NCBI GenBank assembly: GCA_019694215.1
Contig: JAIBCK010000027.1
Location: forward strand, 1 to 36,916
Direction of reading: 5' to 3'
DNA length: 36,916 nucleotides
Source of the DNA: Thermoflexales bacterium
Lineage (GTDB): Bacteria; Chloroflexota; Anaerolineae; J036; Brachytrichaceae
The first letter of the stretch is position 1, and each line of letters starts with the position of its first letter. The notes beneath the pieces are model-generated. The model had not been told where the DNA came from and did no database searches. It worked only from the letters and a program-made list of their open reading frames with translations. A program made the position numbers and the translations under genes. Positions 28,359 through 36,684 of this stretch are shown in pieces.

Positions 28359-30281
28359 CTACTTGATCTCGTACTTCTCCGCCAGCATCGGCACGTACTT
28401 GTTCTCGGCCGTGTTGTAGAAGAAGAGCGGTGTGTAGATCCACGGGTTGTTCACCGAGCCCAGCCCGAGCGGGATGTTGTCGGCGGCGAACACGTTGTAG
28501 TGGCCCTTGGGCGGCGCCACATACGGATAGCTCGTCGCGAAGACCTTCTTGGCGTTGGTCGCCGACGGCTTGAGGATGCCATTGATCAGCTGCCAGGTCG
28601 TCGGCGAGTCGTTCTGGTTGTTCTGATAGATCGGATCGGTGAAGGGCAACCAGCCGGTCACGCGCGTCTTGGTGTCGATCGGGTCGTTGGCGTAGCGCTC
28701 CCACAGGGTCAGCACGGGCAGCTGGTCGTTGAAGATCTGCGCGACCGATGCGACATACGGCTTCTGCGCCGCCGTGTCAAAGCCATCGGCCATCTTGTCG
28801 ACCAACTCGCTCACGTTGACGTCCTTGCCATCCGCGCCCTTCTGCGTCCACGGCCAGTTGATGCCGCGCGAGCCCTCGGGCTTGGTCGGGTTGTTCTTCC
28901 CGCCGATGCCGTCGCGGATGTTGTAGTTGTAGGAGCTGTAGGGGTGCGGCGCGCCGCCCAGGATGCCGATGTCCATCGAGATCTGGAACTTGCCGGTCGG
29001 GGCGAGCGTGTTGCGCTCCGCGGAGGGATACCCGCGGATCGTCAGCAGGATGCCGAACTTCTTGAGCTGCAGGGCGACGTTCTCGGCCGAGCTGAAGAAG
29101 TCGATGAAGTCCTGCGGGACCACCATCTCGTACTCCATCTTCTTGCCCTTGTCGTCGACCCAGATGCCATCCGCGCCCTTGGTGAAGCCGATGCCCTTGA
29201 GCAGCGCCTCGGCCTTGGCGGGATCGTAGGCATAGCCGTTCAGCTTGGCCATCTGATCGGCGCTCAGCCAGCCGGGCACCCACAGGTCTGTGAAGCCGGC
29301 CATGTACTTGAGCGGCACGGCGCTCTCGCCGAGCGCGGCCTTGGCCACTTCGGCGCGGTTGATCGCGTAGGCGAAGGCCTGGCGGACTTCCTTCTTGCCC
29401 AACGGATAAACATCATTATTGAAGTACATCCCCGCGCCGTTGTTCAGGGCGATGCGGATGATCTTCATCTGGTCGCCCAGCGCCATGAAGGATTTCTCGG
29501 CCTCGGGCGGATAGGCGTTCGAGCTGTAGTCCAGCTCGCCCGACAGATACAGCGGGATCGAGTCCTTGGTCTCGCCCGCGTAGACCAGAATGCTGTCAAA
29601 GCCGATCTTGTCGGCGTTGTAGCCATTCGGGTTCTTCTTCAGCGTCAGCTGCGCTTCGGTCACGCTCTTCGGGTCAACGTTGAACGGGCCGGAGACGACG
29701 GCCTCGGTCGGGCGGAACTTGCTCAGGTCATCCAGGAAGGCCTTGACCGCGTCGCCCTTGCGGTCGACGTTGTCCTTGCGCATCTGAGCGGCCTGATCCA
29801 TGAACTTCGAGAACTGCGAGTAGGCGCGCACGTTGTTCGAGCGCAGCAGGCTGCGCAGCAGCGCCGGGCCGGGGCGGGTGATCTTGAACTCGACCGTGGT
29901 GTCGTCGACGGCGACGACGTCCGAGATCTGCGTCCAGATCGAGTCGCTCTGCGCCCAGAACACGTTGTAGGTGCCAACGATGTCCTTGGCGGTATAGGCT
30001 GCGCCATCACTCCACTTCAGGCCCTTCTTCAGGGTGATGGTCAGCGTATTCTTGACCGGAAGCGGCGTCGGAACAGGCGCCGCCGTTGGCTTGGGGACGT
30101 CCGTGGGCTTTGGCACATCCGTGGGCTTGGGCGCCGTGGTCGGGGGCACCGCCGTGGGAGGCGCCGCCGTGGGCTTGGGAGCGTCGGTGGGTTTGGGCAC
30201 GGCGGTCGGGGTGGCCGCATTGCAGGCCGCCAGCAACAGGCTGAGGGCGACCAGGGACGTAGCAATTCGAGACAGTTTCAT
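28359..30281 (-). CDS. ABC transporter family 5 solute-binding lipoprotein, apparently circularly permuted
   Basis: A 640-residue lipoprotein (signal peptide 1-19, lipobox LAAC with C20) with a Pro-Thr linker of KPTD and PTA repeats (21-76). It captures the ligand for the permeases encoded upstream. Domain order is odd. Right after the linker comes TLTITLKKGLKWSDG (79-93), which in this family normally lies about 65-70 residues into the mature domain. The core then runs normally through RQAFAYAINRAEVAKAAL (300-317) to VTGWLPFTDP and about residue 572. The last 64 residues (577-640: AKKVFATSYPYVAP, GLGSVNNPWIYTPLFFYN, YVPMLAEKYEIK) are what usually opens the domain. Joining 640 to 78 restores the consensus. 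A very strong SD (GAGGAGGAGGAT) abuts the ATG. Last gene of the operon. Confidence 0.9.
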   Translation of the reverse strand: MKLSRIATSLVALSLLLAACNAATPTAVPKPTDAPKPTAAPPTAVPPTTAPKPTDVPKPTDVPKPTAAPVPTPLPVKNTLTITLKKGLKWSDGAAYTAKDIVGTYNVFWAQSDSIWTQISDVVAVDDTTVEFKITRPGPALLRSLLRSNNVRAYSQFSKFMDQAAQMRKDNVDRKGDAVKAFLDDLSKFRPTEAVVSGPFNVDPKSVTEAQLTLKKNPNGYNADKIGFDSILVYAGETKDSIPLYLSGELDYSSNAYPPEAEKSFMALGDQMKIIRIALNNGAGMYFNNDVYPLGKKEVRQAFAYAINRAEVAKAALGESAVPLKYMAGFTDLWVPGWLSADQMAKLNGYAYDPAKAEALLKGIGFTKGADGIWVDDKGKKMEYEMVVPQDFIDFFSSAENVALQLKKFGILLTIRGYPSAERNTLAPTGKFQISMDIGILGGAPHPYSSYNYNIRDGIGGKNNPTKPEGSRGINWPWTQKGADGKDVNVSELVDKMADGFDTAAQKPYVASVAQIFNDQLPVLTLWERYANDPIDTKTRVTGWLPFTDPIYQNNQNDSPTTWQLINGILKPSATNAKKVFATSYPYVAPPKGHYNVFAADNIPLGLGSVNNPWIYTPLFFYNTAENKYVPMLAEKYEIK

Positions 30282-30521: not shown

Positions 30522-31364
30522 TTACACCCCCTGTCGCAGACGCGGGTTGAAGACTTCCTCCAACGCGCGCATGATCCACACCAGCCCGATCTGCAGCATG
30601 ACGATGGCGCCAATCGGGGTGATCACCCCCCAGGCCGCCGACGCGGTGTAGATGGCGCCCTTGTTCTCGGCCAGGCTCAGCATCACGCCCCAGTTGGCGC
30701 TGCTGAACGGGATCAGGCCGAGGAAGACCAGGCTGGTCTGATAGTAGATGGCGAAGACGATCGTGCTGACGAGCGCGATCGCGATGAAGCTCAGCATGTT
30801 CGGCAGCATCTCGCGGAAGATGATGTGCCCCGGGCCGAGGTCGAGCATGTTTGCGGCCTCGATGTAGTCGCGCTTCTTGAGCGAGAGCACCACCGTGCGC
30901 ACCTGCCGCGCGAGCGACGGCCAGCCCATCACCGCGATGATGATCGACAGCATCCACGGCTCCTTGAGCTTGAGCAGCGTGGCCAAAATGGCCAGCAGAG
31001 GGAAGCGCGGGATGGTCAGCCACAGCTCGATGAAGGCGACCAGCAGCGCATCCGCCCGCCCGCCGAAATAGGCCGCCGTCGCGCCGATGGACACCGCGAT
31101 CAGCGTCTCCAGTATGCCGGTGATCAGCGCGATCAGCATGATGTCCTTGCCGCCTGAAAAGAGCAGCGCCAGGTTGTCCAACCCTTGAAAGTTGGTGCCC
31201 AACGGATGCTCTGCGGTTGGGCCCTCCGAGGCGTGGGCGAGGTCGGCGGTGTCGCCCACCGGGCGCAGGCCCGGGCCGATCACTGCGCTCAGCACGAGCA
31301 GGCCGACCAGGACCAGGCCGACCAGACCGAGCTTGTTGCGGGCGAAGAGGCGAAGGGTTTCCAT
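30522..31364 (-). CDS. ABC transporter permease, DppC/OppC type
   Basis: A 280-residue inner membrane subunit of a peptide/nickel-type importer (BPD_transp_1). It has the N-terminal helix of the OppC subgroup (LGLVGLVLVGLLVLSAVIGP), the ALITGILETLIAVSIG segment and the EAA loop YIEAANMLDLGPGHIIFREM (about 168-187) that contacts the ATPase. Four to five further helices follow the usual plan. The N-terminal HPLGTNFQGLDNLA corresponds to the HPLGTD..GRD motif but with Asn-Phe in place of the usual residues. An AGGAGG lies 8 nt before the ATG, and the gap to the preceding permease gene is 12 bp. Confidence 0.93.
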   Translation of the reverse strand: METLRLFARNKLGLVGLVLVGLLVLSAVIGPGLRPVGDTADLAHASEGPTAEHPLGTNFQGLDNLALLFSGGKDIMLIALITGILETLIAVSIGATAAYFGGRADALLVAFIELWLTIPRFPLLAILATLLKLKEPWMLSIIIAVMGWPSLARQVRTVVLSLKKRDYIEAANMLDLGPGHIIFREMLPNMLSFIAIALVSTIVFAIYYQTSLVFLGLIPFSSANWGVMLSLAENKGAIYTASAAWGVITPIGAIVMLQIGLVWIMRALEEVFNPRLRQGV

Positions 31365-31376
31365 GTTCAGCGCCTC

Positions 31377-32432
31377 CTAGGGACCGGTGGCCTTGATCCG
31401 CACGCGCGGGTCGAGATAGCCATACAGAAAGTCGGCGACCAGCCCGGACACGACGACGGCCGTCGTCGTCACCAGGAAGATGCCCTGCATCACCGGATAG
31501 TCGCGCGCGCCCAGCGCCTGCACCGCCTCGTAGCCCAGCCCGCGGTACTTGAAGATCTGCTCGATGATGAGCGAGCCGCCCATCGAGAAGCCGATCACGA
31601 TCGCCAGCCGGGTGAAGAGCGGCAGTGAGGCGTTTCGCCCGACATAGGCGGTCATGATGCGCGAATCGCGCAGCCCGCGCGCCTTGGCCACCGTCACGTA
31701 GTCGTCGCCCAGCGCGTTGATCGTGTTGGCCCGCATCGCCAGGATCCAGCCGCCCACCGTGGTCAGGACGTAGATCGCGGCAGGCACGCGCCAGTGCATG
31801 AAGACGTCGCTGAAGAACTCGAGCGAGAACTCGGGCTGCACGCCGGGAGAAAGCGCGCCGCGCAGCTGCGAGATCGGAATGACCTTCCACACCGCGCCGA
31901 GCATCAGCACCGCCAGCAGCGCGAGCGTGAAGGCGGGCAGGGCCTCCATCAGCGCGGCGAAGTTGGTGATCAGCAGATCGATCAGGGTGTTGCGCCGGTA
32001 GGCGGCCAGCGTGCCCAGCAGGATGCCCAACGTAAAACTGATCAGCAGCGAGCTGCCCACCGAGAAGATCGTCCACGGCAGGCGCTGCGTGATGATTTCC
32101 GCCACCGGCACCGTGCGCGCCTTGAACGAGGTGCCCAGATCACCCGTCACCAGCTTGGCCATGTAGTCGAGATACTGCTCGCCGACCGGTTTGTCGAGCG
32201 GGATGTTCATCATCATGGCGGCCTGGTTGCGCGCATCCTCGGCCGACGCGCCCGCCCGCAGCAGCTCTTCCATGTAGATGTCGATGGGGTTGCCCGGCAT
32301 CAGACGGATCAGGAAGAAGGTCAGCGTCGTCGCCAGCCAGATCGTCAACAGCGCCTTGAGCAGCCGGCCGCCGAGATAGCGCAGGGCCAGTCCGCTGCGC
32401 GATGGGGTGGATTTGATGGGGATTGCGCTCAT
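31377..32432 (-). CDS. ABC transporter permease, DppB/OppB type
   Basis: A 351-residue inner membrane subunit. The first helix segment is YLGGRLLKALLTIWLATTLT followed by FFLIRLMPGNPID, as in DppB/OppB. The periplasmic part includes GDLGTSFKARTVPVAEII, and the EAA loop is DDYVTVAKARGLRDSRIM (about 244-261). The C-terminal part with DFLYGYLDPRVRI is typical. It should pair with the next permease to form the channel. The start lies 9 bp after the stop of the zinc-ribbon protein gene, and its SD (AGAGGAA) overlaps that stop, so translation is likely coupled. Confidence 0.93.
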   Translation of the reverse strand: MSAIPIKSTPSRSGLALRYLGGRLLKALLTIWLATTLTFFLIRLMPGNPIDIYMEELLRAGASAEDARNQAAMMMNIPLDKPVGEQYLDYMAKLVTGDLGTSFKARTVPVAEIITQRLPWTIFSVGSSLLISFTLGILLGTLAAYRRNTLIDLLITNFAALMEALPAFTLALLAVLMLGAVWKVIPISQLRGALSPGVQPEFSLEFFSDVFMHWRVPAAIYVLTTVGGWILAMRANTINALGDDYVTVAKARGLRDSRIMTAYVGRNASLPLFTRLAIVIGFSMGGSLIIEQIFKYRGLGYEAVQALGARDYPVMQGIFLVTTTAVVVSGLVADFLYGYLDPRVRIKATGP

Positions 32433-32441
32433 CGTGTTCCT

Positions 32442-33710
32442 CTATGCGCCGATGTACTCGCGATACAGGTCGATGGCCCGGGAGGCCACTGCTGCCTCGA
32501 GCGGTTTGAGCTCCTGTTGCAGCCGCTCGTGATCGCGGTCCGTCCAAACCACCGGGGGTGCCGTCCGCGGCAGCGCGTTCAACACGTCCACCCGAAACTG
32601 CGTCGGTGGGAGGCTGGAGTTGGCAAAGGCGCCGGCCTTGAGGGTCACCCGTCGCAGCCGCTCGCGCTCGCGCGGGGACATTGCCTGCAGGCATGCCCGG
32701 ACCTCGTCGATGTACCCGCGCTTCTTGTCAAGTGGGTTGGCGCTGACCGCCAGGCGTTGTGCGGCGTTCAAGACCGCCACCGACGGAGCATCGTCCGCCA
32801 AGAAGTCGCTCCAGTGCTGCGCGCCAGCGACCCGCGCAGTCAAGCGATCGGCCAGGTAGGCGGCGCGCTGGGAGTCCAGGCGTGTGAGCGAGTAATACGC
32901 GTTGGCCAGGCCTTTGCTGAGCGACGCGGCAATCCTCAACGGTATCGTTGCGAGCAGCGTCAACCAGGGCATCCTGCGCCCCCCCGGCGGCGAAGCGGGC
33001 AAGATGGCGTACGAGAAGCGAAACAACAGGGTCCAGGCATTGCCCGTCACGCCGATTCGCAGCAGATCGCCGTTCTTCAGGTGCGCCAGCCCGCCGGCGA
33101 TCAACGCCACAACTTGCTGAGGCGGCGTGGTGAAGAGAAGGGGATAGCTCAGGGTGAGCAGGGGCCGGGGCGGAAAGCCGACCGGGCCGATTGACGTCTG
33201 CGCAAATGGGTTGAGCGCGATCAAATCGATTTTCCGCACGCCCATTTCGGCAGCGATGCGGTCGACCAGGCCGAACAGGGCGGGGTGCTCCGCGCGGGGC
33301 AGGGTGCCCTTTGGGACCGGATCGATGTTGATCAGCAGCCGCAGTGCGGTGGCGACCGCGGTCACCCCAAGCAGCACCGGGATGATGTAGGGCCAGAAGC
33401 GCACAACGGTAAAAAGCCCCATCCCCCCGCATGCCAGCACCGGCAGGTGGATGAGCACCGCGAACAGGATGGCGAGCGCGGCGCGCGTGTCGCGGCCCGG
33501 TCGCGCCTCGGGATGCGCCAGCACGTCGTCGCGCAGCGCCCGCGCATGCTTCTCGTTCAGGTGGGTTGCCAGGGCGTTCAACGAGCCCGGGGCCGGCGGC
33601 TTCTCGTTTGGATCGATGTTCCAGTCGCAGGCGTCGCACCACGTCACCTCGAGCGGGTGCTCGGTGAGTTTGGCCCCGCAGTTGGGGCAATGCGTGAGCG
33701 TGTCACTCAT
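32442..33710 (-). CDS. Zinc-ribbon membrane protein with degenerate M48 peptidase-like domain
   Basis: A 422-residue protein. A zinc ribbon (C8, C11, C25, C28 in HCPNCGAK and WCDACDW) opens it. Two helices follow (about 77-98 and 105-127), then a region laid out like M48 (HtpX-type) peptidases: FGLVDRIAAEMGVRKIDLIA (146-165), PLLTLSYPLLF (183-193), QVVALIAGGLAHLKNGDLL (199-217) and SQRAAYLADRL (280-290). The HExxH site is GGLAH (206-210), so the first His and catalytic Glu are lost; the downstream Glu ligand before Tyr is Ala. It is probably a pseudo-enzyme. ATGA overlap with the ATPase gene upstream and a 9-bp gap to the permease gene fix it inside the importer operon. The ATG at 33710 is chosen because of this overlap and the zinc ribbon. 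Confidence 0.78.
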   Translation of the reverse strand: MSDTLTHCPNCGAKLTEHPLEVTWCDACDWNIDPNEKPPAPGSLNALATHLNEKHARALRDDVLAHPEARPGRDTRAALAILFAVLIHLPVLACGGMGLFTVVRFWPYIIPVLLGVTAVATALRLLINIDPVPKGTLPRAEHPALFGLVDRIAAEMGVRKIDLIALNPFAQTSIGPVGFPPRPLLTLSYPLLFTTPPQQVVALIAGGLAHLKNGDLLRIGVTGNAWTLLFRFSYAILPASPPGGRRMPWLTLLATIPLRIAASLSKGLANAYYSLTRLDSQRAAYLADRLTARVAGAQHWSDFLADDAPSVAVLNAAQRLAVSANPLDKKRGYIDEVRACLQAMSPRERERLRRVTLKAGAFANSSLPPTQFRVDVLNALPRTAPPVVWTDRDHERLQQELKPLEAAVASRAIDLYREYIGA

Positions 33711-34717
33711 GACCGGGCCTCCGCCTGAGCCTGCTGGCGCAGCTGCTCGATGACCGGGTGACAGGCCACCGAGACACCCCCGCCCACCTCGACGAGCGCC
33801 GGCGACTGCGCGCTGCACCGCTCGCCCTCAAAGGCCGGGCAGCGCGGATGAAAGGCGCACCCGCCCGGCATCCTGAGCAGGCTGGGGATTTCGTCGCTGC
33901 GCAGACGGATGCGTTCCCGCCGTTGGACGCCCTCCAGCTCGGGTTCAGGGATGGCTGACAGCAGCGCGCGCGTGTAGGGATGCCGGGGATGCTCGACCAG
34001 CGCACGGGCCGGCGCAAGCTCGACCATGCGCCCGAGATACATCACCCCGATGCGCCCCTCCCACGCAAAATACTTCGCCAGCGCCAGGTCGTGGGTGATG
34101 AAGAGCACGCCCAGCCCCATCTTGTCCTTGAGCGCCGAGAGCGTATTGAGCAGCGCGATACGGATGGACATGTCCACCGACGCGACAGCCTCGTCGGCGA
34201 TGATGAAGGACGGGTTCACGGTCAGCGCGCGCGCGATGGAGACGCGCTGGCGCTGCCCGCCGCTGAGCTGGTGGGGGTATTTCTCGATCAGGTCCGCCGC
34301 CGGGGTGAGGTTGACCAGCTCGAGCAGCTCGATCGCGCGGGCGCGGGCCGCCGGGCCGCGCGCAAAGCCGTGCCGTTCGAGCGGCGCGCGCAGGATCTGC
34401 CCAACGGTGCGGGTCGAGTTGAGCGAGGCATACGGATCCTGATGGATGAGCTGCACGCCCAGCCGGAAACGCCGGTACGCATCGCCCTTGAGCGACTTGA
34501 TGTCCTGACCACGATACAGGATGCGCCCCTGGCTCACCGCGAGCAACCCGGCCACCATCTTGCCCGTCGTCGTCTTGCCGCAGCCACTCTCGCCGACCAG
34601 GCATACGACCTCGCCCGGCGCGATGTCCAGCGAGACGTCGTCCACGGCACGGATGCTCTGACGCCCCACCTCGAAGGTGCGGGTGACGTTCTGCAGGGAG
34701 ATGAGCGGCGTCGTCAT
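33707..34717 (-). CDS. ABC transporter ATPase, OppF/DppF type
   Basis: A 336-residue nucleotide-binding subunit of the peptide importer. Walker A is GESGCGKTT (42-50), the signature LSGGQ (151-155), Walker B FIIADEAVASVD with D175 and E176, and the switch His is in FITHDLAL. The usual DEPVSALD of the family reads DEAVASVD. The C-terminal oligopeptide-ATPase extension has GGCAFHPRC and later ERCSAQ and VACH, the Cys set that can hold an iron-sulfur cluster in this family. The ATG overlaps the TGA of the partner ATPase gene (ATGA), and its own TGA overlaps the next ATG in the same way. Confidence 0.94.
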   Translation of the reverse strand: MTTPLISLQNVTRTFEVGRQSIRAVDDVSLDIAPGEVVCLVGESGCGKTTTGKMVAGLLAVSQGRILYRGQDIKSLKGDAYRRFRLGVQLIHQDPYASLNSTRTVGQILRAPLERHGFARGPAARARAIELLELVNLTPAADLIEKYPHQLSGGQRQRVSIARALTVNPSFIIADEAVASVDMSIRIALLNTLSALKDKMGLGVLFITHDLALAKYFAWEGRIGVMYLGRMVELAPARALVEHPRHPYTRALLSAIPEPELEGVQRRERIRLRSDEIPSLLRMPGGCAFHPRCPAFEGERCSAQSPALVEVGGGVSVACHPVIEQLRQQAQAEARS

Positions 34718-35742
34718 CGGGTCGCCTCCGCCCGCGCAGCGCCGGCGACGTCGCGCCAGAAGTGGCAGCGCACGATGTGCCGCGCGGCGACTTCCTCCGG
34801 CGGCGGCATGTCCTGACTGCAAATGGCCTGCGCAGCCTGGCAGCGGGCGTGGAAGGCGCACCCCTTCGGCAGGTTGATCAGGTCCGGCGGCGAGCCGGGG
34901 ATCGAGGCGACCTCGGCCCGGTCGCTGTCCAACGTAGGCAGTGACCGCAGCAGCCCTCGCGTATACGGATGGTGTGGCCGATTGAAGAGCGTGCGCGTGT
35001 TGCCGATCTCGACGATGGTCCCCGCGTAGAAGGTCGCCATGCGATCCACCAGCTCGGCGGCCAGGGCCAGGTCGTGCGAGATGAAGATCATCGAGAAGTT
35101 CAACGCCTTGCGCAAATCCCGCAGCACGTCGATGACGCTGCGCTGCGTCAACACATCCAGCGCGGTGGTCGGCTCGTCGAGGATGAGCAACTGCGGTTCG
35201 AGGAGCAGGGCCAGCGCGATCAGCACGCGCTGGCGCATCCCGCCCGACAGCTCGTGGGGGTAGGCCTCCCACACCCGGCGCGGATCCAGACGCACCAGCT
35301 CGAGCAGCGACTTGCCGCGCTCGACCAGCTCGCGGCCGCGCGGTCCGCCGTGCGCGCGCGAGGTGTCATTGAACTGATCCGAGATGCGCAGGACGGGGTT
35401 GAAGGCGTTCATCGAGCCCTGGAACACCATGGCCGCCTCCTTCCAGCGGAAGCGACGCAGGCCCTCGGCGTCCAGCGCACGAACATCTATCTCGGTCGCG
35501 CTGCCATCGGCCACCGGCCGGCGATACACGATCTCACCGGCGCTGATCGTGGCATTCCCGGGCAGCAGGCGGATCAGGCTGGTGCCGACCGTGGTCTTGC
35601 CCGAGCCGCTCTCGCCGATCAGCGCCAGGGCCTCGCCCGGCAGCAGGTCGAAATTGACCGCCTGCGCGGCCTTCACCCACCCGCGCCGGGTCTGATACTC
35701 GATCGCCAGATTGCGGACGGACAGCGTGGGGTGGGAGGGCAT
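34714..35742 (-). CDS. ABC transporter ATPase, OppD/DppD type
   Basis: A 342-residue nucleotide-binding subunit. Walker A is GESGSGKTT (43-51), the Q loop VFQGSMNAFNP, the signature ELSGGMRQR (164-172), Walker B LLILDEPTTALD (D189, E190) and the switch His in FISHDLAL. The C-terminal Cys motif is KGCAFHARC, AICSQ and VRCHF. Together with the OppF-type partner it energises import. The start is 18 bp after the murQ stop; TAAGAT ends 5 nt before the ATG, so an internal promoter is possible, but the short gap also suits co-transcription with murQ. Confidence 0.94.
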   Translation of the reverse strand: MPSHPTLSVRNLAIEYQTRRGWVKAAQAVNFDLLPGEALALIGESGSGKTTVGTSLIRLLPGNATISAGEIVYRRPVADGSATEIDVRALDAEGLRRFRWKEAAMVFQGSMNAFNPVLRISDQFNDTSRAHGGPRGRELVERGKSLLELVRLDPRRVWEAYPHELSGGMRQRVLIALALLLEPQLLILDEPTTALDVLTQRSVIDVLRDLRKALNFSMIFISHDLALAAELVDRMATFYAGTIVEIGNTRTLFNRPHHPYTRGLLRSLPTLDSDRAEVASIPGSPPDLINLPKGCAFHARCQAAQAICSQDMPPPEEVAARHIVRCHFWRDVAGAARAEATR

Positions 35743-35760: not shown

Positions 35761-36684
35761 TTATGGATGTGGCCCGGGTCCCGGCGCAGACGCGCCAGTC
35801 AGGGCGCGACGCACCTGGCCACCGGCGCGCGAGAGACGGGCCTGCGCTTCCTCGCAGTCGCAGCCGGTCAGACCCGCCACGATGGCGGTCTTGGTGTTGC
35901 CGCACGCCGTCAGCAGGCGTTGGGCTTCCTCCGCGGGCAGGCCGGTCACGGCTTCGACGATGCGGCGGGCCCGGTCGCGCAGCTTGGTGTTGGACGCCTG
36001 CAGGTCGACCATGAGGTTGCCGTAGGTCTTGCCCAGCCGGATCATGGCTGTGGTCGAAATCATGTTGAGCGCCAGCTTGGTCGCCGTGCCCGCCTTCATG
36101 CGCGTCGAGCCGGTGATCACCTCCGGCCCGGTGAGCAGGCTGATTGCGATCTCGGCCGCGTCGTGCACGGGCGCGGGCGCCGCCGAGCAGCACAGGCTGC
36201 CCGTGAGCGCGCCGCGGGCGCGGGCCTCGCGCAGCGTGCCGACGACATACGGTGTGCGCGCGCTGGCGGCCACGCCGAGCACGCTGTCGAGCGCGCCTAC
36301 GTCCAACGCAGCGATGTCCGCAGCGCCCAGGGCGACGTTGTCCTCGGCGCCTTCCACGGCCTGGAACATGGCCTCGCGCCCGCCCGCGATCAGCCCGCGC
36401 ACGAGGGTGGGCGGCACGCTGAAGGTCGGCGGCATTTCACTCGCATCGACGACGGCCAGGCGACCCGACGTGCCCGCGCCGGTGTAGATCAGGCGTCCGC
36501 CGCGCTGCATCCGCGCCACCAGCCCGTCGACAAAGCGGGCCAGGTCGGGGATGGCCGCCGCGACGGCGTCCGCGACGCCCTTGTCCTCGGCGTTGATCCG
36601 GCGCAGGATCTCCAGCGTGGGCTGGGCGTCGATGTCGACGGTCTTTGCGTTGACGCCTTCGGTGAGCGGCAGCGAGGGCGTCAT
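35761..36684 (-). CDS. murQ: N-acetylmuramic acid 6-phosphate etherase MurQ
   Basis: A 307-residue SIS-domain enzyme that removes the lactyl ether from MurNAc 6-phosphate to give GlcNAc 6-phosphate and D-lactate, a central step in reusing cell-wall sugar. It starts [13 protein letters not shown] (7-19), followed by [20 protein letters not shown] (66-85). The two catalytic Glu residues, E83 (DASE) and E114 (EGAED), fall at the same numbers as in the E. coli enzyme. [17 protein letters not shown] and a C-terminal helical region complete the family pattern. The ATG overlaps the stop of anmK by 4 bp (ATGA). The Pro-rich last ten residues are a small extension. Confidence 0.96.

Follow-up and report, generated by a model that had tools for sequence, protein, structure and literature searches.

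Known natural permutants and the family 5 solute-binding proteins

OppA, DppA, and NikA belong to family 5, which ranks among the large families of solute-binding proteins (SBPs). Importers of the MppA/YejA type, which take up murein peptides, may share a role with the protein described here, namely to bring cell-wall fragments into the cell with the help of a cluster C SBP; they have the canonical order of segments, and membership of this protein in their group is not claimed. OppA, DppA, the mannoside binder TM1223, and the Vibrio chitooligosaccharide-binding protein share with it the Pfam family, the predicted fold, and the type of permease and ATPase, but they carry in front the N-terminal segment that it carries behind. 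Cluster C proteins consist of two lobes that shut around the ligand, and they dock on a pair of permeases (PMC12136057).

In other SBP classes, natural permutation is established. The closest described case is TpMglB-2 (Tp0684) of Treponema pallidum, a natural permutant of 'Type Ic / Cluster Bc' (PMC4990184). As in the protein described here, the circular permutation affects a tethered SBP of an ABC importer, and the first strands of the N lobe have moved to the C terminus (PMC4990184). TpMglB-2 still binds its ligand, and the permutation may, according to the authors, be connected with membrane tethering (PMC4990184). However, it is a sugar binder of cluster B, an SBP class that differs in fold and size; its moved part resembles the canonical counterpart poorly (13%), whereas the resemblance is clear in the present protein, and the fourth crossover that the permutation adds is a feature of TpMglB-2 itself (PMC4990184). 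Permutation relations are also described for the glycine-betaine-binding and molybdate-binding proteins, which form a CP family in CPSARST (PMC2395249). These cases were found by structural comparison of distant families with <24% identity, none of them family 5, and, unlike the present case, they involve no replacement within a subfamily in the same operon (PMC2395249). A published natural permutation in cluster C or family 5 SBPs was not found in searches of an open-access library, and the text of PMC2861598 contains neither "dislocation" nor "permutation". The preliminary description, which knew of no natural permutation in this family, hence stands for cluster C within that library, with the addition that other SBP classes do have such cases.

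Architecture of the permuted protein

The window analyzed here is a stretch of 36,916 nucleotides from a Thermoflexales bacterium (contig JAIBCK010000027.1). On its minus strand, positions 28359..30281 encode a family 5 solute-binding lipoprotein of 640 amino acids plus stop, which profile, order, and alignment tests identify as circularly permuted. The protein begins with a signal peptide (residues 1–20, 30222..30281) ending in the lipobox LAAC at residues 17–20. It is followed by a Pro/Thr-rich linker (residues 21–77, 30051..30221) that, like the signal peptide, is recognized from the sequence and runs straight into a strand of the body. The body (residues 78–574, 28560..30050) aligns with the canonical protein from the second strand of its N-terminal hairpin to its C terminus, and TLTITLKKGLKWSDG is found at residues 79–93, just after the linker. 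At the joint (residues 575–583, 28533..28559), alignment and sequence place the old C terminus next to the old N terminus. The chain ends with the displaced head (residues 584–640, 28362..28532), which by homology is the canonical mature N terminus, from PYxxPPxGHxN to LAEKYEIK. Herein, PLFFYN occupies residues 618–623 and MLAEKYEIK residues 632–640, exactly where the preliminary description had located them.

The Pfam profile SBP_bac_5 (PF00496) matches residues 77–453 with 164.9 bits (cut-off 32.4). The match begins at profile position 16, positions 1–15 being absent in front, and the equivalents of these 15 positions are found at the C terminus. In the canonical homologue P0005 (from locus L102), the match begins at profile position 1. 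Judged by its sequence, the window protein is a member of a permuted branch of SBP_bac_5/cluster C and not a standard member. Nine of the 11 further SBP_bac_5 matches in the same genome begin at profile positions 1–4. One (C167) starts at position 16, and inspection by eye revealed no displaced C-terminal segment in it; the remaining match lies in two pieces at locus C74.

Order of the segments and the joint

Each segment of the window protein is homologous to a canonical counterpart, and the segments stand in rotated order. In a phmmer comparison with TM1223 (1vr5/4pft), query residues 594–638 fall on chain residues ~21–70, and query residues 78–529 follow directly. The head alone yields just ~5.5 bits against TM1223; against close canonical relatives, most matches lie at 1e-5 to 1e-12. 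The head bears the PYxxPP...N signature of its own subfamily and is 28–43% identical to canonical members of that subfamily.

An un-permuted sequence, in which residues 577–640 were moved ahead of 78–576, was compared by blastp with the canonical L102 protein. It aligns as a single HSP of 557 columns with 427 bits and 41% identity, and the gap at the joint is one residue. The native order splits into two HSPs in swapped order, of 390 and 46.6 bits. That residue 640 placed before residue 78 restores a normal family sequence, as was proposed from the DNA at the outset, is therefore seen as a continuous alignment. The cut lies in a short turn between two adjacent β-strands near the old N terminus; most canonical proteins of the family alignment are longer by 1–3 residues in this turn. 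At the other end, canonical proteins stop at ...LDGTLRP, whereas the permuted ones continue via ...LKPSATN...F.T.YPY... into the head. The displaced segment does align to the N terminus of the family, but its extent has to be narrowed: of residues 577–640, first taken as the segment, homology is clear from about residue 584, and 575–583 form a connecting stretch.

Predicted fold

An AlphaFold2 model of residues 72–640, built with 20 sequences, has a mean pLDDT of 88.1 and a pTM of 0.84; a canonical relative, modeled with 18 sequences, reaches 91.9 and 0.89. The canonical model begins with H22–32, E38–41, E46–49, and E52–58, followed by E61–66 and H80–92. The permuted model begins at the equivalent of canonical E61–66 and ends with H533–544, E549–552, E557–560, and E563–568. 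Hence, its last four elements are the first of the canonical model, and the elements of the body keep their order. Over the last 60 residues, blocks of 10 residues average 71–95 pLDDT, with 95 at the end. From DSSP and these confidence values, we infer that the terminal strands pair. A two-lobed cluster C fold is predicted for the permuted protein, and the comparison with the family topology suggested in the preliminary description gives a confidently predicted single fold with a rotated order of elements.

In Foldseek searches, the nearest solved structures for both models are TM1223 and the Vibrio chitooligosaccharide-binding proteins. All neighbors of the permuted model belong to cluster C, the nearest being binders of chitooligosaccharides and mannosides. 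The sequential TM scores of the best matches are 0.56–0.66 for the permutant versus about 0.8 for the canonical model; a lower sequential score is expected for a permutant, but the open or closed state also affects it.

Relatives, distribution, and selection

To score the order, body and head were located one by one in every open reading frame. The head stands behind the body in the window protein and in ten further complete homologues from other assemblies (L069–L077, for which the order was computed, and L118, for which it was read off the translated frame); L029, L030, and L031 are further names for the genes L070, L072, and L076. In three additional genomes (G135, G047, and G072), truncated copies fit the permuted order: in two of these copies, signal and linker are directly followed by the body at the start, and the contigs of G072 contain the front as well as the end that bears the head. 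Outside the group of at least 50% identity, the head stands in front in all 33 scored homologues, which are 36–43% identical except for the most distant one (L028). A second head before the body was sought in the permuted reading frames; each has one head match, located C-terminally, and no homologue combines an N-terminal with a C-terminal copy.

The permuted proteins group in a single clade on the tree, with an SH-aLRT of 99 and one label change; the tree was obtained by a quick method without bootstrap from ten permuted rows, L118 having been found later and left out. The permuted order is derived, since other SBP_bac_5 proteins share the canonical one. So far, the permuted form has been found only in the class Anaerolineae (Chloroflexota). 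Among the listed homologues from a sample of the phylum outside this class, matches run to about query residue 575, i.e. they are canonical, with a few weak extensions to 582–594. Within the class, the form is present in eight of 14 genomes of family f39, in two f50 genomes, and in one each of f31, f11, and f21; four of the permuted-type genomes are Chloroflexi/Anaerolineales MAGs. The window's genome is the sole carrier in its order, and its sister genera are canonical. This patchy distribution suggests lateral transfer or repeated loss of the permuted form.

Both parts of the protein are clearly under purifying selection. Between close permuted homologues, Nei–Gojobori dN/dS values are 0.06–0.15 for the body and 0.07–0.28 for the displaced head, values that are approximate since dS is at or above 1 in several pairs. 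All ten other complete homologues have an intact reading frame. Canonical orthologues hold the equivalent position in homologous operons. A canonical orthologue was sought in 13 permuted-type genomes, and at E ≤ 1e-40 only the permuted protein matches; the window's genome otherwise holds distant relatives only. The shared operon slot and the lack of a retained canonical orthologue indicate that the permuted form replaced the ordinary protein.

Two loci among the relatives differ in what precedes the permuted body. In genome G065, a frame at L095:6572–8680 (+) carries a heme c-type domain (CSTCH; PF09098 Dehyd-heme_bind, 1.2e-8) at the boundary between Pro/Thr linker and permuted body. Here, unusually, a redox module is fused to a permuted SBP, and the CxxCH domain could be an example of module addition. 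In G315, the frame at L093:6726–8603 (−) resembles, by eye, the C terminus of another SBP ahead of the permuted domain; it runs past the contig end, and a tandem fusion and an assembly chimera are both possible.

Operon and putative ligand

The permuted SBP is partnered genetically with permeases and ATPases of the OppBCDF type. Along the minus strand, the gene order is murQ, OppD, OppF, a zinc-ribbon membrane protein, OppB, OppC, and the SBP. MurQ, the N-acetylmuramic acid 6-phosphate etherase (35761..36684), is identified by NCBIfam TIGR00274 with 349 bits (cut-off 302). The OppD/DppD-type ATPase (34714..35742) matches Pfam ABC_tran and oligo_HPY; the OppF/DppF-type ATPase (33707..34717) has 336 amino acids and starts with MTTPLIS, the longest open reading frame extending to 35272. 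The permeases are of the OppB/DppB type (31377..32432, BPD_transp_1 and BPD_transp_1_N) and the OppC/DppC type (30522..31364, BPD_transp_1 and OppC_N). Between OppF and OppB, 32442..33710 encodes an uncharacterized membrane protein with a zinc-ribbon-like N terminus (CPNC...CDAC), probably of 422 amino acids from an ATG at 33710; it is placed here by position, and no Pfam family matches it above cut-off.

In homologous operons, the neighbors include NamZ exo-muramidase, GH3 β-N-acetylhexosaminidase, AnmK, BadF-type kinases, and MurQ. From the gene neighborhood and the fold neighbors, a peptidoglycan fragment, either an amino sugar or a muropeptide, appears to be the leading candidate ligand and is, on balance, slightly favored. 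Possible gene fusions occur at two related loci. MurQ lies in the C-terminal half of a 630-residue frame at L105:3105–4994 (−) and of a 673-residue frame at L101:277–2295 (+); in the L105 frame, inspection by eye suggests a BadF-type sugar kinase in the N-terminal half, and this frame may represent a MurNAc kinase–etherase fusion beside canonical-type genes. At L101:4445–6586 (+), one 714-residue frame, possibly a fused ATPase, lies where OppD and OppF would be.

Alternative explanations

The order in the relatives, the seamless joint, the single clade, the purifying selection, and the rotated predicted fold together make the circular permutation first proposed from the DNA practically certain. 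The window comes from a 184-contig assembly, and an artefact of assembly or binning, or a gene in decay, might be considered; as the same order and the same joint recur in ten further complete homologues, each from a different assembly than the window, and all frames are intact with dN/dS well below 1, the chance of this is negligible. For the permuted family as a whole, an assembly error is refuted by the independent assemblies. It is also conceivable that the original head was lost and a head from a different SBP gene was captured at the C terminus, i.e. a fusion and not a strict permutation. The authors of the TpMglB-2 study raised this for their permutant, owing to its poor conservation (PMC4990184), and between the window protein and L090 the identity of the head (52%) is somewhat below that of the body (60%). 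The head, however, shows the PYxxPP...N signature of its own subfamily, its identity to canonical members of that subfamily is 28–43%, with the strongest matches at ~1e-12, and head and body are alike under selection, which makes capture very improbable.

A strand-swapped oligomer, in which the C-terminal head would complete the lobe of a neighboring molecule, is rated marginally lower still: swapping is in principle open to any terminal segment that hangs on a connector, but no tool result points to it, this connector is short, and the single-chain AlphaFold2 model is confident across most of the head. Overall, the best explanation is, thus, that this family 5 (cluster C) SBP is a natural circular permutant, and it is held with very high confidence. 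That the permuted protein acts as a single folded, functional importer subunit is likely, with ligand binding inferred from selection, operon position, and its being the only copy.

Origin and tethering

Tandem duplication followed by trimming is the standard model for the origin of circular permutants, and it is plausible for the permuted SBP. Remnants of a duplication, as head or body peptides, were sought in ~1.3 kb on either side of the gene and were not found, and no intermediate was seen. In the permutant, the chain opens in the turn between two neighboring β-strands near the old N terminus, a short stretch links the old ends, and the usual two-lobed clamp is the expected fold. The tether, consisting of lipobox and Pro/Thr linker, would then run through the new cut point and no longer through the old N terminus, and the ligand would be passed to the OppBCDF-type importer encoded alongside. 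The cut turn lies in the extra subdomain that OppA has in its N lobe; hence, the tether would attach there and not at the old N terminus.

The DNA of the signal peptide and Pro/Thr linker (window 30051–30281, minus strand) is 73–79% identical to that of unrelated lipoproteins of the same genome (L002, L003, and L004). This front cassette may be exchangeable, which is a weak reading because the repeats are low in complexity. Whether the permutation is adaptive is doubtful: the lipid tether would have been moved from the old N terminus to the N-lobe turn, which would have become a site for the attachment of new modules, as in L095. If so, the permuted SBP would be anchored at another point when it presents ligand to the permease.

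Implications

Together with TpMglB-2, the present protein would bring to two the SBP classes that contain a tethered permutant, so the tethering idea put forward by Brautigam and colleagues can be compared directly between them. Matched canonical and permuted pairs in otherwise similar operons offer a test of tether position in delivery to the permease, and the permuted clade supplies a natural cut site for the design of family 5 biosensors. Since Pfam-type profile searches read permuted proteins as members without an N terminus, more of them may be hidden in the family. In some Anaerolineae, the rearrangement is inherited and still selected.
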